DNA from: Alphaproteobacteria bacterium
Lineage (GTDB): Bacteria; Pseudomonadota; Alphaproteobacteria; DSM-16000; Inquilinaceae
DNA: 46,348 nucleotides
Assembly: GCA_009909005.1 (NCBI GenBank)
Contig: JAAAOG010000062.1
Span: 1 to 46,348, forward strand
Reading direction: 5' to 3'
Shown piece by piece: positions 166 through 32,318 of this stretch. The position numbers and the translations under genes are program-made. A model generated the notes under the pieces. That model saw only the letters and a program-made list of their open reading frames with translations. It searched no databases and was not told where the DNA came from. Numbering within the stretch: the first letter of the stretch is position 1; every line of letters begins with the position of its first letter.

Positions 166-1128
166 ATGAAAACGGCCGCGATTCTGGTTGCGGGACTGAT
201 CATCGGGGTCATGGTCGCCTTTTGGGGCGATCTGACCCGTTCGGGCGACCGCCTGAGCGGCGTTCCCTTCAGCGAAATCAGCGCGGCGGCTGACAGGCAT
301 TGCCGGTCCGATGGTGCGTTTCTCCCCGAACAATGCCGGTGCATGGTCGAAGGCGTGGCGGAGAGGCTGTCGCGCGCCGAGGCCCGCGAGGTTCTCCTGA
401 CCGCTGCGTTCATTGCGCCGGAACCAGGGACGTCGGTCTTCCCGGCTGCGGACAGCCGCGCCGATCCGGATGGCGAGGCAGAGACGGTTGCCGGGTCTTC
501 GGACGATGCGGGTGGGGGCGACTTCGACCTGGCCATGCTCTGGCAGGACTGTGCGCCTCTTGCACAGCCTGACGAGGCGCCCTCTGCCTATGCCCCCCCG
601 GAAGGCGGCTTGCGGCTGACGCTGGACAATGGCCGGGTTTACACCATCGACAGCAATGACCCTGATCTCGTCCAATATTATTTCCGCAACGCCAATTGGC
701 GGCGGCAGAGCTCGCAATACTACCGCTCCCTCGTTCTCCTCGGCGGTGCGGAGGGCCTCAGCAACCGCATCGAAAATGCCGAGCCGCTGGAACGACTCTG
801 GCCGCTGGCGGTCGGTAATCGGGCCGAATACAAGGTCATCACGCGGCGCTATGGCCGGTTCCTCGCGCGCCGGTCGGAGCTCGCCGAAGTGCTCCGGACC
901 GAGACCCTGACGGCCGGTGGCGATCACTATGAAACCTTCGTTGTCCAGGGGCGGTGGCAGGTGACCCACTGGCTCGATTCCCGGCAACAAATCTACGATG
1001 CCGGGGATTGGACTGCCTGGTATTGCCCGGAAACCGGAACCTGGCTGCGTTGGGAAGACAACCTGTACCGCCAGGGCCGGACCATCGGCAGCTCCCGCAT
1101 GCAGGTCGTCCGCATCGCCCCGATGTGA
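166..1128 (+). CDS. Membrane-anchored or exported protein of unknown function
   Basis: This 320-residue protein starts with an uncleaved-looking hydrophobic segment (about residues 3-22: AAILVAGLIIGVMVAFW), so it is probably anchored in the inner membrane with the bulk in the periplasm. A Cys-containing stretch follows (HCRSDG...CRCM, about residues 45-65). It is predicted helical and resembles small periplasmic Cys motifs, but no family was recognised. A low-complexity acidic linker at about 85-115 leads to a C-terminal domain rich in Tyr, Trp and Arg (about 145-318). The start is supported by an AAAGGGGA ribosome site 7 nt upstream. Nothing nearby on the plus strand suggests an operon. Coding is well supported by length and codon bias; function is unknown. 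Confidence 0.75.
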   Translation: MKTAAILVAGLIIGVMVAFWGDLTRSGDRLSGVPFSEISAAADRHCRSDGAFLPEQCRCMVEGVAERLSRAEAREVLLTAAFIAPEPGTSVFPAADSRADPDGEAETVAGSSDDAGGGDFDLAMLWQDCAPLAQPDEAPSAYAPPEGGLRLTLDNGRVYTIDSNDPDLVQYYFRNANWRRQSSQYYRSLVLLGGAEGLSNRIENAEPLERLWPLAVGNRAEYKVITRRYGRFLARRSELAEVLRTETLTAGGDHYETFVVQGRWQVTHWLDSRQQIYDAGDWTAWYCPETGTWLRWEDNLYRQGRTIGSSRMQVVRIAPM

Positions 1129-1329: not shown

Positions 1330-1343
1330 TTGATATGGATCAA
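1330..1343. promoter_or_regulatory. FNR/Anr/FixK-type box
   Basis: The sequence TTGAT-ATGG-ATCAA is a perfect match to the FNR/Anr/FixK consensus TTGAT-N4-ATCAA. Its centre lies about 90 nt upstream of the ATG of the 27-codon ORF at 1427. If the site acts in class II position (centre near -41.5), transcription would start near 1378 and leave a leader of about 50 nt. No strong -10 hexamer is obvious at the implied place, as expected for an activator-dependent promoter. Low-oxygen control is inferred from the consensus only. Confidence 0.6.
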
Positions 1344-1426
1344 TGGGCCGGCGGCGAAAAATTCGTTACGGTCCGCCCGCCTGTTTGGCAATGAAATTGT
1401 TCTTTACGTCTGGGAGACCAAAGAAA

Positions 1427-1510
1427 ATGTCTGTCATCAAGAAAAACACCTGGATCCTTCTGGTGGCTGGCTTTGCCGTCCTCATCGCCGTCGGGGTGAT
1501 CACCTCGTAA
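1427..1510 (+). CDS. 27-residue single-span membrane microprotein
   Basis: This short ORF (27 residues plus TAA) encodes MSVIKKNTW followed by one hydrophobic span (about residues 9-25: WILLVAGFAVLIAVGVI) and a short TS tail. The two lysines before the span predict an N-in topology. A GGGAG ribosome site lies at 1412-1416, 10 nt before the ATG. The design resembles small subunits or modulators of membrane complexes (as CydX or CcoQ are for oxidases), but no homology is claimed. A perfect FNR-type box about 90 nt upstream makes an oxygen-regulated role attractive. It is too short for coding statistics; support rests on ribosome site, composition and upstream box. Confidence 0.55.
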   Translation: MSVIKKNTWILLVAGFAVLIAVGVITS

Positions 1511-1838: not shown

Positions 1839-3134
1839 TCAGCGAGCGGAATAACCATTTTGCGCGGTGCGCAGCCGGCCGAGGATGTCGAGGGTGGGGA
1901 AGCCGTCCGCGGGCACGCCGATTTCCGTCTGGAAAGACCTGAGCGCCCGGCGAGTCCGAGGCCCGGTCAGGCCATCAGCCTCCCCCGGATCATAGCCGAG
2001 CGCAGCAAGCAGCGTCTGCAGTTCCGTCACTTCCTGAAACCGCAGCGACCGTCCGATCGCCGGACGGGGCCCCTGAAGCGGCCCGCCGCCGGCCAGCCTG
2101 TCTGCCAGATGGCCGACGGCCAGGGCATAATAGCTGGAGTTGTTCCACGTCATGATTGCGCGGAAATTGTCGTACACCAGGAATGCCGGTCCCTGATGGC
2201 CCATCGGGAGGATCAGCGAGGCGGTCAGATCGGCCTGCGGCAATTCCCGGCCATCGGTGCGGCGGACACCGTGCCGCTGCCATTCGGCGAGCGGCAGTTC
2301 CAGCGAGAGATCGGCCAGGACCCAGGGAAAATCCTCCGGCAGCCGCACCTCCCGGCCCCAGGTCTCGTCCCCCCGCCAGCCGATTTCGGACAGGTAGTGG
2401 GCCCCCGACGCCAAGGCATCCGGGACGCTCGACCATAAATCGCGTCGGCCGTCATCGTCGAAATCCACCGCAAAACGGCGATAGGTCGAGGGCATGAACT
2501 GCACCTGTCCCATGGCGCCGGCCCAGGAGCCGCGCATGCGTCCGGGGCTGATGTCCCCCGCCTCGATCAGGCTCAGGGCATCGATGAGTTGGGACCGGAA
2601 CATGTCCGCCCGCCGGCTGCCATAGGCCAGGGTCGCCAGAGCCTGGGGAACCGGGAAGTCCCCGAGGAAACTGCCATAGCCGGTTTCCAGACCCCACAAC
2701 GCCACAAGGAAGCGCGGCTGCACGCCATAGCGGGCGCGGATGGCGGCCAGCAGATCGGCGTTCGCGGCGAGCTGCCGCCGTCCTTCCGCGATTCGCTCCG
2801 GCGAGATGGCATTGTCGAGATATTCCCAGAATGTCCGGGTAAATTCCGGCTGGTGCCGGTCCAATTCCAGCACGCGGCGATTCGGCGACATCCCGGCCAG
2901 GGCCCGATCGATCGTGGCATCCGAAAGCCCCGCGGCCCGGGCCTCCGCCCGGAAATCGGCCAGCCAGGTGGCGAAATCCGTGTCAGCCCGCGCCAGGTCG
3001 TTGCCGCCTGCCAGGCCAATGAGCAAGAGCACGAGAAGCGTGGCCGCAACGAAACGCCCGGCGGACTGAGGCCGGCGCCCAAATCTGCCCGATGAGAACA
3101 CAGCGGCACCTATGTCTTGTGTGTCTGGCCGCAC
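1839..3134 (-). CDS. Lytic murein transglycosylase, MltB family (SLT_2 plus PG-binding domain)
   Basis: This is an exported lytic transglycosylase that cleaves the MurNAc-GlcNAc bond of peptidoglycan. Residues about 27-50 form a signal sequence (FVAATLLVLLLIGLAGG, then ARADT). The SLT_2 catalytic domain spans about 52-350. It carries the WGLETGYGSFLG motif, with Glu150 as the likely catalytic acid, and the GAMGQVQFMPSTYRRFA segment typical of MltB proteins. A peptidoglycan_binding_1 domain occupies about 365-425 (LQTLLAALGYDPGEADGLTG). The length, 431 residues, fits the MltB_2 subfamily. The start used is GTG; a downstream start just before the hydrophobic core is possible. The gene is monocistronic on the minus strand. 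The lack of a lipobox suggests a soluble periplasmic form. Confidence 0.9.
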   Translation of the reverse strand: MRPDTQDIGAAVFSSGRFGRRPQSAGRFVAATLLVLLLIGLAGGNDLARADTDFATWLADFRAEARAAGLSDATIDRALAGMSPNRRVLELDRHQPEFTRTFWEYLDNAISPERIAEGRRQLAANADLLAAIRARYGVQPRFLVALWGLETGYGSFLGDFPVPQALATLAYGSRRADMFRSQLIDALSLIEAGDISPGRMRGSWAGAMGQVQFMPSTYRRFAVDFDDDGRRDLWSSVPDALASGAHYLSEIGWRGDETWGREVRLPEDFPWVLADLSLELPLAEWQRHGVRRTDGRELPQADLTASLILPMGHQGPAFLVYDNFRAIMTWNNSSYYALAVGHLADRLAGGGPLQGPRPAIGRSLRFQEVTELQTLLAALGYDPGEADGLTGPRTRRALRSFQTEIGVPADGFPTLDILGRLRTAQNGYSAR

Positions 3135-3602: not shown

Positions 3603-4595
3603 TCACCGGCGGGGCGTGAGACCTGCATCCGCGTGGGCGAGGATGTCCTTCAGCTCGCCGACCGCGCTGTCGCCGGCGGCCCGGCCCAGTGCGATCAGCT
3701 CCTCAGCCCGATCGAATTCCGCCAGGCCGATATGCCCGACGCGCGGCGTGATATGCACGTCGGGCGGGTCGCTGGCGAGGCGAGCCCGGGTGGCGCGGTC
3801 GAGGACCAGGCTCAGTGAGGAGACCATGACGCCGAAGACGCTCGGCCCCTGGCGATCGCGGCGCAGCAGCACCCGCACCAGGCCGGGCAGGGCGGCAAGC
3901 CGGCCCAGGCCGCGGCCCGTGCCGGTGCTTTTCTCGGCCTGGCGGACGACATCGTCGACATCGAACGTGGCCTCGCTCTGCAGCGGCCCGATGCCGGCCG
4001 CGATGCGCCGGCTGATATCGGCATTGACATTGACGCCGATGACGATGCGCGCCCCCATTGCCACGCAGACGGAAACCGGCAGCGGGTTGACCAGGGCGCC
4101 GTCGACCAGCCATCGGCCGTCCAGCGCCATCGGCGGAAAGACGCCGGGCAGCGAATAGGAGGCCCGGACCGCCTCGACGACGGATCCGCGCGTCAGCCAG
4201 ACCTCGCGGCCGCTGGTCAGGTCGGAGGCGATGCAGACAAAGGGCTTCGGCAGGTGCTCGATGGTCATGTCGCCGAAATGGGCGCGCATCTCCTTGCTCA
4301 GCCGCTCGCCGCTGATCAGCCCTGCCCGGCTCATGGTGAAGTCGAGATAGCTGACGGCTTTGAACCGGTTCACGGAGCGCGCCCAGTCCTCCACCGAATC
4401 AAGCTTGCCGGCCAGATAGCAGGCGCCGACGAGCGCCCCGATCGAGGTCCCGGCCACCATGTCGGGCTCGATGCCGGCATCCAGCAGCGCGCGCAGCACG
4501 CCGATATGCGCCCAGCCGCGGGCGACGCCGCCGCCCAGTGCCAGCCCGATCCGGGGCTGGCCGGGACGGGAGAACATCCATTCGGCGCTGCTCAT
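3603..4595 (-). CDS. Patatin-like phospholipase family protein (RssA-like)
   Basis: This 330-residue protein is a patatin-fold serine acyl hydrolase that should act on phospholipids or other acyl esters. The oxyanion-hole loop (ALGGGVARGWAHIGVL, residues 19-34) precedes the nucleophile elbow GTSIG with Ser51. The dyad aspartate is Asp165 in VDGALVNPLPV. The remaining C-terminal part (about 190-330) is the helical extension seen in RssA/YchK-type proteins. There is no signal peptide, so it is probably cytoplasmic or membrane-peripheral. A GGAGGGG ribosome site stands before the ATG at 4595. A 46-codon membrane microprotein lies about 165 nt upstream on the same strand and may share its transcript. 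Confidence 0.92.
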   Translation of the reverse strand: MSSAEWMFSRPGQPRIGLALGGGVARGWAHIGVLRALLDAGIEPDMVAGTSIGALVGACYLAGKLDSVEDWARSVNRFKAVSYLDFTMSRAGLISGERLSKEMRAHFGDMTIEHLPKPFVCIASDLTSGREVWLTRGSVVEAVRASYSLPGVFPPMALDGRWLVDGALVNPLPVSVCVAMGARIVIGVNVNADISRRIAAGIGPLQSEATFDVDDVVRQAEKSTGTGRGLGRLAALPGLVRVLLRRDRQGPSVFGVMVSSLSLVLDRATRARLASDPPDVHITPRVGHIGLAEFDRAEELIALGRAAGDSAVGELKDILAHADAGLTPRR

Positions 4596-4760: not shown

Positions 4761-4901
4761 CTACGGTCGCAGCATCTTATGTATGATAACAACGACAAGA
4801 TATACAATAATGGCGACGCAAAGGGTTGCGAGCCAGGGATCCCAGAAGGGCACATCGAGGAGATGGGTCCACCAGCGCCAGGTTCGTTCGACGGGGTCCA
4901 T
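4761..4901 (-). CDS. 46-residue tryptophan-rich membrane microprotein
   Basis: The minus strand encodes a 46-residue peptide with an amphipathic Trp-rich N-terminus (MDPVERTWRWWTHLLD, then PFWDPW). A single strongly hydrophobic span follows (about 24-40: LATLCVAIIVYLVVVII), ending in the basic tail HKMLRP. A GGAGG ribosome site lies about 6 nt before the ATG. Its base composition is AT-richer than its neighbours. The design, with one span and a positive C-terminal tail, is that of a genuine small membrane protein. The gene precedes the patatin-like lipase gene on the same strand, so a link with membrane lipid metabolism is possible but unproven. Confidence 0.6.
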   Translation of the reverse strand: MDPVERTWRWWTHLLDVPFWDPWLATLCVAIIVYLVVVIIHKMLRP

Positions 4902-29629: not shown

Positions 29630-29951
29630 ATATATTTATGTTGTTTTAGTATTGTTCCCGGCGCCGTCGGAATTGCCCGGAAGGGCCGGCGCGGGTTCCA
29701 GGCCGCCGATATGGCCGTCGCCGTCATTCAAGGCCGCATGCGGCTGTCTGGTCATTTTGAAAACGCGAGACAGGACTTTGAAAGTCGCAACAGCGCGTCC
29801 TTGCGCGGCCGCTGCACGCGAAGCGGCAGACGCAGATGTGCGACCTGCCTGAATTATTGTGAGAATAGTCGGGCGGAACAACGACCTCTCCACCGTGGTT
29901 GATGGGAATAGCCCTTTGGCAAACACGGGAAAAGAAGAGGGAGCGCCCAAG
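29630..29951. other. Intergenic region before the haloperoxidase gene
   Basis: About 320 nt separate the small exported protein from the haloperoxidase start. Short open frames exist on both strands but none has a ribosome site and protein-like composition together. An AT-rich ATATATTTATGTTG patch lies directly after the preceding stop. No T-run terminator was seen. Confidence 0.45.
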
Positions 29952-32318
29952 ATGACGGCAAGCATCAATGTAAGGGATCCAGAGTTTGTTTTGTCCTCTC
30001 AAGGAACAAATCATACACAATTTTCAACCGGCGCGGAGGGACAGTTCAACCCTTCTCCCTCGAGCGGTTTTGCGAGTGTTTGGCCTCTCCTTCTTCACAG
30101 CTTCCATTTCCTCGAACCTGGACCGCTGGAGATCAGTAGTGACATCAGCACCGAAGGTGCGACGCGTGTGGTCACCGGTGGCAGCGATGACCGGCTGATC
30201 CTCGATGCAGGCGCTGACGAGGTGCATCTCGGGAGCGGTGATGATCAGTTCAGGGCTGGAGGGCCGGTCCGACTGGTCGTTGCGGGAAGCGCCGACGACA
30301 GCGTCATACTCGAAGCAGGCGCCGAAGAGGTGGTCCTGGGAAGCGGCGATGATCTCCTGGAGGCCGCAGGGGCGGTCGAGAGAGTGCGCTCGGGCTCCGG
30401 CGACGATATCGTCCGGCTCTCGACAGCGAACGGGCAGGTCGATGGCGGCTCGGGAGAGGACAGTCTCTTCCTCGCCCAGCCGCTCAATGCGTTCGACGTT
30501 CTTGTTGAGGAGGACACCGTCTCACTCGCCGACCGGATGACAGGAGACGTCGCGCAATTCACACAGTTCGAGGCTTTCACATTCGAAAATGGAAGTTACA
30601 GTTTCGAGCGGCTCGTCGAGAACTTTGGTCCCAATGCGTTTCCCAAAATCAGCGTCGCCCGCGGCACCCAATTTACGACCGTCAACGATTTCGATCCGTC
30701 GGTGAACGTCGTCTGGGATCGGGCGGCTCAGCAGGCCGTCATCGAGACTGAGATCTCGACCGGGCCGACCGTCGCCTCGCGCGCCTACGGCATGGTTCAC
30801 ACGGCGATCTACGATGCTTGGGCGAGCTACGATCCCACGGCCGTGCGCGTCTCGTTCGATGCCGCCGGGAACAATGAGGACCTCGAGGCAGGACTTGTTG
30901 CCACCGACGCCAACAAAAACAAGGCGATGTCCTACGCGGCCTATCAGGTGCTGCTCGATCTCTTTCCCGATCAGAAACCGCTTTTCGACACGATCATGAC
31001 CGAGCGGTACGGCCTTGACCCGGCGGGTGACGGCAGTCCCGAGGCCGGGGTCGGCGCGGATGCTGCCGCAGATCTGCTGGCCCTGCGCCGCATGGATGGC
31101 TCGAACCAGCTGAACGGCTATGTCGACACGACCGGATACGAGCCTGTCAACAAGGGGCCGGATCAGGTCGTCGATATTACCCGGTGGACGCCCGAGAACG
31201 TGCCGATCGACTCGGCCGACGACTCGACGCGGCAAGAGTTCCTGTCGCCACACTGGCCCGGGGTCGAGAGCTTCGGCCTTCCCGAAACCGCAGGCAGCGA
31301 GCAGACCGATTTCGAGAGCCTTGGCGTGCCGGCGCCGCAGCCCTTCTTCCTGGATGCATTCGCCGAGTCGGAGCTTAACCTGGACGCAAAGACGGTCGAG
31401 CTTTCGGCGCCGGTCACCATCGACGGGGTCGATTACGCAGCCGGTGACACTCTGCAGGTATCGAAGGCACTGATCGGTGAGGTCATTGCTCCGCGCTTCA
31501 TCAGCCAGGCCGAGGAGATCGTCGAGTTCAACGCGAACCTGACCGACCGCCAGAAGCTGATTGCGGAGTTCTGGGAGGATGCGGGCGGCACAGCATTTCC
31601 GCCGGGAACCTTCATGACGTTCGCTCAGGTTGTCTCGGCGCGAGACGGAAACAGCGTCGACGAGGATGCGAAAATGTTTTTCGCCATGGGGAACGCTGTG
31701 ATGGACGCCGGCATATCGGCCTGGTGGACAAAGGTGGAGTTTGACTATGCTCGCCCCGTTCGGGCCATTCGTGAACTTGGCAAGCTTGAGCTGATCGGTG
31801 AGCCGGGGGTCGATGAACTGACAGGAGAAGAGGGCTACGTGATCGAGGCCTTCGCCGGTTATGACCCTGAAACCAGCATCGGCCTTGGCACAAAGACGAT
31901 TCTGGCGGAGAATTTCGTTACCTATCAGCGGCCCTTCTCGAACCCCTCGCCGCCCTTCGCCGAATATGTCTCCGGGCACAGCACCTTCAGCGCTGCCGGC
32001 GCAGAAGTGCTGCGCCAGTTCACGGGATCGGAAGAGTTCGGCGCGTCAGTGACGTTTCAGCCCGGCGCCTCGCAGTTCGATCCGAGCGTTCCTGCGGAGC
32101 CGATCACGCTGTCCTGGGATACCTTCGAGGCCGCATCCGACGAGGCCGGGATCTCCCGCCGCTACGGCAATATCCACTTCGAGGATGCCGATCTGGTCGG
32201 GCGCCGGCTCGGCGAGGATGTGGGTGCAGGAGTGTACGAGCTTGCGGAGCAGTTTATTGACGGAACGGTTCCGGACGTGAGCCGGCCGTTCTTTGAGGAA
32301 TGGGACATGATCGGCTGA
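29952..32318 (+). CDS. Vanadium-dependent haloperoxidase with N-terminal RTX-like repeats
   Basis: This 788-residue protein joins a repeat block to a vanadium chloroperoxidase-type PAP2 domain. All vanadate-binding residues can be matched: Lys594 and Arg601 in TKVEFDYARPVR, the Ser-Gly-His of YVSGHSTFSAAG (His676, the acid/base), and Arg736 and His742 in SRRYGNIHF, His742 being the axial vanadate ligand. The spacings (K to R seven, R to H six) equal those of fungal chloroperoxidase. Residues about 75-175 hold six imperfect GGxGxDxxx-like units (LGSGDDQFR, LGSGDDLLE, SGSGDDIVR, GGSGEDSLF). No Sec or Tat signal is visible, so type I secretion is possible. ATG 29952 has GGGAG upstream; a GTG at 29859 is the alternative start. 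Confidence 0.92.
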   Translation: MTASINVRDPEFVLSSQGTNHTQFSTGAEGQFNPSPSSGFASVWPLLLHSFHFLEPGPLEISSDISTEGATRVVTGGSDDRLILDAGADEVHLGSGDDQFRAGGPVRLVVAGSADDSVILEAGAEEVVLGSGDDLLEAAGAVERVRSGSGDDIVRLSTANGQVDGGSGEDSLFLAQPLNAFDVLVEEDTVSLADRMTGDVAQFTQFEAFTFENGSYSFERLVENFGPNAFPKISVARGTQFTTVNDFDPSVNVVWDRAAQQAVIETEISTGPTVASRAYGMVHTAIYDAWASYDPTAVRVSFDAAGNNEDLEAGLVATDANKNKAMSYAAYQVLLDLFPDQKPLFDTIMTERYGLDPAGDGSPEAGVGADAAADLLALRRMDGSNQLNGYVDTTGYEPVNKGPDQVVDITRWTPENVPIDSADDSTRQEFLSPHWPGVESFGLPETAGSEQTDFESLGVPAPQPFFLDAFAESELNLDAKTVELSAPVTIDGVDYAAGDTLQVSKALIGEVIAPRFISQAEEIVEFNANLTDRQKLIAEFWEDAGGTAFPPGTFMTFAQVVSARDGNSVDEDAKMFFAMGNAVMDAGISAWWTKVEFDYARPVRAIRELGKLELIGEPGVDELTGEEGYVIEAFAGYDPETSIGLGTKTILAENFVTYQRPFSNPSPPFAEYVSGHSTFSAAGAEVLRQFTGSEEFGASVTFQPGASQFDPSVPAEPITLSWDTFEAASDEAGISRRYGNIHFEDADLVGRRLGEDVGAGVYELAEQFIDGTVPDVSRPFFEEWDMIG

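Follow-up and report, generated by a model that had tools for sequence, protein, structure and literature searches.

Small membrane proteins and the FnrL site

In Escherichia coli, CydH/CydY (YnhF), a 29-residue subunit of the bd-I oxidase, is made at low oxygen and is encoded away from the cyd operon (PMC6853902, PMC8951039). YohP, also from E. coli, is a 27-residue protein with a single span; its level goes up when oxygen is scarce, and it reduces membrane potential (PMC12719787). Other small single-span proteins of low-oxygen oxidases, namely CydX, DUF2474 and FixQ (CcoQ), are encoded within the oxidase operons. The published recognition site of FNR and FnrL is TTGAT-N4-ATCAA (PMC5398030, PMC4634722), and in Rhodobacter the genes controlled by FnrL include ccoN and fnrL (PMC4634722). 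The available parts of these two reports, dealing with Rhodobacter and Dinoroseobacter, include no microprotein like the one described below among the targets of FnrL.

The gene considered here lies near the start of a window (the whole stretch of DNA that was analysed, 46,348 nt) and encodes a 27-residue peptide. Sequence comparisons point to a real orphan microprotein gene, probably activated by FnrL. It resembles CydH/CydY in being tiny, in having one span and in standing alone outside any oxidase operon, with low-oxygen production being known for CydH and predicted for the microprotein. However, CydH accompanies bd oxidases of the L subfamily. In the three genomes that carry the microprotein (G000, G004 and G012), the CydA matches have a shorter span, about 427 aa vs about 495 aa, so that, judged by length alone, their CydA would be of the S type. 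Homology with CydH, suggested by eye, was rejected because shuffled sequences reach the same score 23-44% of the time, reflecting membrane composition. A search of the 300 nt that precede cydH in E. coli turned up no FNR box. YohP is likened to the microprotein by description (27 residues, one span), and differs in being linked in E. coli to nutrient limitation and stationary phase. CydX, DUF2474 and FixQ share the small single-span design, but their genes sit in oxidase operons, whereas the microprotein gene and the cyd and cco loci are on different contigs; no Pfam or NCBIfam model of these families matches the microprotein. The cco operon of the genome has its own FixQ (4.3e-14), and its cyd operon contains a weak DUF2474-like ORF (0.0009, below the cut-off).

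Organization of the locus

The features of the locus are as follows.

166..1128, + strand: upstream neighbour, a 320-aa protein without Pfam match, ending 201 nt before the box
1330..1343, + strand: FNR/FnrL box TTGATATGGATCAA, a perfect TTGAT-N4-ATCAA by motif match
1367..1372, + strand: weak candidate -10 element TACGGT (3/6 matches, centre offset 30.5; spacing fits class II)
1412..1416, + strand: Shine-Dalgarno GGGAG, about 10 nt before ATG 1427
1427..1510, + strand: 27-codon ORF encoding the single-span membrane microprotein MSVIKKNTWILLVAGFAVLIAVGVITS (ATG 1427, TAA 1510)
1839..3134, - strand: convergent lytic transglycosylase (SLT_2 and peptidoglycan-binding domain), which bounds the microprotein transcription unit

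A sequence-only reading had drawn attention to a perfect box, rare by chance, about 90 nt before an ORF with a ribosome site and one membrane span, and each of these particulars was borne out. The box is the sole match in the window, where no second one appears even with one mismatch allowed. Models based on base composition predict 0.008-0.010 perfect boxes per window, and none occurred in 100 dinucleotide shuffles of the window. Across the 4.2-Mb genome, seven perfect boxes were observed vs 0.7-0.9 expected. The distance to ATG 1427 is 83 nt from the end of the box and 97 nt from its start, and the region between 1195 and 1426 has 44% G+C vs 68% in the window. With the upstream gene stopping 201 nt short of the box and the next large gene being convergent, a forward promoter here has no evident target but the short ORF; no other gene candidate was found on the + strand between the box and the transglycosylase. 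The 320-aa neighbour carries an N-terminal membrane anchor, and its best NCBIfam match has an E value of just 0.086.

The peptide consists of a charged start and one strongly hydrophobic stretch, with a mean hydropathy of 2.46 over residues 8-26. The window has 315 frames of 20-50 codons that begin with ATG, and an 18-residue stretch averaging at least 2.2 occurs only in the 27-codon ORF (listed with two nested starts) and in one minus-strand frame at 4901. The frame is open upstream of ATG 1427, with alternative ATGs at 1343 and 1391. The longer forms of 55 or 39 codons were rejected, their N-terminal extension lacking conservation in a relative (see below), and a Shine-Dalgarno sequence and conservation are seen together in the 27-codon form alone. 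The gene is single-copy. Its peptide matches no family in Pfam or NCBIfam, the Pfam model DUF3094 (E 0.21) falling below the cut-off, and a search of PDB chains returned nothing meaningful and no oxidase subunit. An Rfam snoRNA candidate at the locus (E 0.8) was likewise below threshold.

Conservation in a second genus

The same reading had made its case depend on the peptide frame being kept in related genomes, and the frame was indeed found in a second genus. The peptide is present (E about 1e-6) in G004 and G012, two closely similar MAGs of another genus in the same family, in records JANQIX010000114 (isolate PL24a_bin.80) and JANQQD010000367 (isolate IP29b_bin.19). The isolate names agree with those expected from work on the skeletons of the corals Porites lutea and Isopora palifera (PMC9868349), from which these relatives may originate, although neither accession was located in its text. 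The two are near-identical in this stretch and therefore provide one independent comparison. Record L051 (JANQQD010000367.1) is titled Anaerolineae bacterium, yet G012 is placed in the same genus as G004, an alphaproteobacterium, and around the microprotein the two are near-identical; the title is likely a naming error in the public record.

The peptide of the relative, MELIKKNSWIVLVSGFVVLIAIGIAMS, aligns without gaps to MSVIKKNTWILLVAGFAVLIAVGVITS with 17 of 27 residues identical. The BLOSUM62 score of the pair is 94, compared with a maximum of 61 in 5000 shuffles that preserved the composition of the N-terminus and of the span, so the likeness exceeds that of two membrane spans. The residues kept in both genera comprise the IKKN[ST]W stretch, G15, A21 and G23. 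Within the ORF, the 34 nucleotide differences are distributed as 9, 6 and 19 over codon positions 1, 2 and 3, and the proportion of changed sites is 0.87 for synonymous and 0.26 for nonsynonymous sites, an excess of synonymous change that is the signature of selection acting on the protein.

In the relative, a Shine-Dalgarno GGAGG precedes the ATG, and 68 nt upstream of that ATG stands a one-mismatch box, TTGATTCATATCAT; in simulated sequence of matching composition, a one-mismatch site arises by chance in 150 nt about 3% of the time. The flanking DNA of the window and of the relative shows no similarity above that of shuffles, and the neighbours in the relative are different (hypD, hypE, a 229-aa gene and a thioredoxin-like gene). 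Since flanks and neighbours have changed and the box and ORF have been retained, the pair has stayed together, which supports a link between them that had at first been drawn from distance.

In both relatives, the gene adjoining the microprotein is the 229-aa one, which is low in G+C (L121:5484-6173, - strand; L120:535-1224, - strand). Its match to the Fenna-Matthews-Olson bacteriochlorophyll protein (PF02327, E 0.00095, 18.6 bits against a cut-off of 25) is below threshold, and a PDB search gave this match no support. About 120 nt before this gene lies another box, perfect in G004 and with one mismatch in G012.

An FnrL-type regulator and its boxes

The genome encodes a Crp/Fnr protein of 255 aa (L062, contig C179) with CGACPVRALTVC near its N-terminus and ETVSR in the recognition helix, that is, an FNR-type regulator with N-terminal cysteines. 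Its best NCBIfam model is FnrL (1.6e-54), with a score of 184.7, under the Rhodobacter-specific FnrL cut-off of 300. Upstream of the fnrL gene is a 14-mer identical to TTGATATGGATCAA of the window, and the FnrL of the relative, 80% identical, has TTGATGTGCATCAA upstream of its gene. A further identical 14-mer precedes a gene for a CC0125-type lipoprotein. Another box stands before narG, where it adjoins and follows nnrS, and TTGACACAAGTCAA lies between ccoN and a DUF2189 gene. The set shares its site with the FnrL regulon of Rhodobacter and Dinoroseobacter, and Rhodobacter likewise has ccoN and fnrL among the targets (PMC4634722, PMC5398030). Of the seven perfect boxes of the genome, two fall within a coding sequence or at its end, so a perfect match is by itself insufficient to prove a promoter. 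Proteins of the FixK/Dnr type are alternative possible readers of the same site, which counts against assigning it to FnrL. At L057:1501-1514, a perfect box is found about 440 nt before a PAS_5 domain gene, and an 80-codon minus-strand frame begins directly after it.

Distribution

The microprotein is present in 3 of the 17 genomes of the family, which make up the whole order in this collection, and was not found in the other 14. A class-wide profile search of 386 sampled genomes gave no convincing match, almost all matches being chance membrane segments in long frames; weak matches in short frames at L037 and L042 were set aside after inspection showed no comparable short gene. When the GTDB species collection was scanned with a degenerate DNA pattern, 12 stretches matched, of which two are the known relatives and ten belong to unrelated groups and are taken as chance; the pattern was strict, so diverged forms would be missed. 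Plasmids gave no match, and phages gave matches at E about 7-9 only. On present evidence, the gene is restricted to this lineage.

Among candidate partners, nitrate reductase was considered and rejected as a strict one, because the pattern of narG does not match that of the microprotein: narG occurs in 5 of the 17 family genomes, was not found in the microprotein-bearing G012 and is present in three family genomes that lack the microprotein. A tie to bd oxidase was not retained either, cydA being present in 14 of the 17 and hence not discriminating.

Proposed mechanism and rival explanations

In class II activation, the box is usually centred at -41.5. At low oxygen, the FnrL-type Fe-S regulator would bind TTGATATGGATCAA, as the site and the regulator suggest, and from a position near -41.5 would recruit RNA polymerase. 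Transcription would then begin near 1378, with a leader of about 49 nt here and of 34 nt in the relative under the same placement. A consensus scan found no promoter-like site at the locus, and the two promoters, when compared, do not clearly share a -10 element. Translation would start at ATG 1427, on the basis of conservation, and one helix is predicted to cross the inner membrane with IKKN[ST]W on the cytoplasmic side, following the positive-inside rule and hydropathy. Taken jointly, these steps describe a stand-alone, FnrL-activated low-oxygen gene for a single-span membrane protein, and this description is considered likely. An oxygen-regulated microprotein gene, as originally proposed for this stretch, is well supported by the conserved frame, the retained near-perfect box and the FnrL-type regulator with the same box. 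Proteins this short are seldom annotated; here reading the sequence alone pointed to the place, and the comparison with a second genus lends support to the protein as well as to its oxygen switch.

Explanations that would do away with this gene fare worse. The box and the ORF could be unrelated, the box arising by chance and the ORF having another promoter, or both arising by chance; the perfect boxes within or at the end of coding sequence indicate that some are not promoters, and the one-mismatch box of the relative has that roughly 3% probability of being fortuitous. However, a perfect box is expected 0.01 times per window, this one is identical to that of fnrL, and a box is kept in a second genus in different surroundings, which makes a chance pairing improbable. 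FNR drives the small RNA FnrS in E. coli, and an isolated intergenic transcription unit with an FNR box might similarly produce a regulatory RNA, with the short ORF being incidental. It is very unlikely that this is the case here: conservation between genera is limited to the ORF, in frame and with changes concentrated at third positions, the rest of the intergenic DNA lacks conservation, no Rfam family is above threshold, and the scan of the locus found no forward terminator-like site. The peptide might instead be the small hydrophobic toxin of a type I toxin-antitoxin system, being short and single-span with a positively charged end. Yet the gene is single-copy, no antisense promoter-like site was found in the locus scan, no Pfam or NCBIfam family is matched, and the gene has been retained amid different neighbours together with an oxygen-sensor box, all of which makes a toxin hard to credit.

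By analogy with CydH, the microprotein may be an unlinked accessory subunit or modulator that packs on one of the membrane complexes of low-oxygen respiration, a role that is put forward tentatively. The oxidase-tuning function mentioned in the sequence-only reading is plausible on circumstantial grounds, namely the company of the gene in the regulon and the precedents of CydH, CydX and YohP. The rival to this last step is a general low-oxygen membrane-stress protein acting on the bilayer or on membrane potential. YohP, of equal size and with a single span flanked by positive charge, rises under oxygen limitation and lowers membrane potential (PMC12719787), and the microprotein gene is likewise tied to no operon; however, the retention of IKKN[ST]W, G15, A21 and G23 suggests a specific contact surface, and a YohP-like role is regarded as somewhat unlikely. 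It is a doubtful but conceivable extension of the subunit reading that the microprotein is the first of a new family of unlinked, FnrL-controlled subunits, confined to one alphaproteobacterial order, that bind the cbb3 oxidase, the short-loop bd oxidase or nitrate reductase at low oxygen only and evolved independently of CydH. Should the product bind an oxidase, CydH would have an independent counterpart as an unlinked micro-subunit, the second of its kind, and this would be a reason to seek such subunits via FNR boxes, not operons.

Other features of the window

Two further features of the window were recorded. A short membrane ORF of 46 aa, MDPVERTWRWWTHLLDVPFWDPWLATLCVAIIVYLVVVIIHKMLRP, with a Shine-Dalgarno sequence, is found at 4761-4901 on the - strand, upstream of a patatin-like gene (3603-4595, - strand). 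At 29859-32318 on the + strand, an 819-aa protein combines RTX repeats with a helical domain resembling that of vanadium chloroperoxidase.
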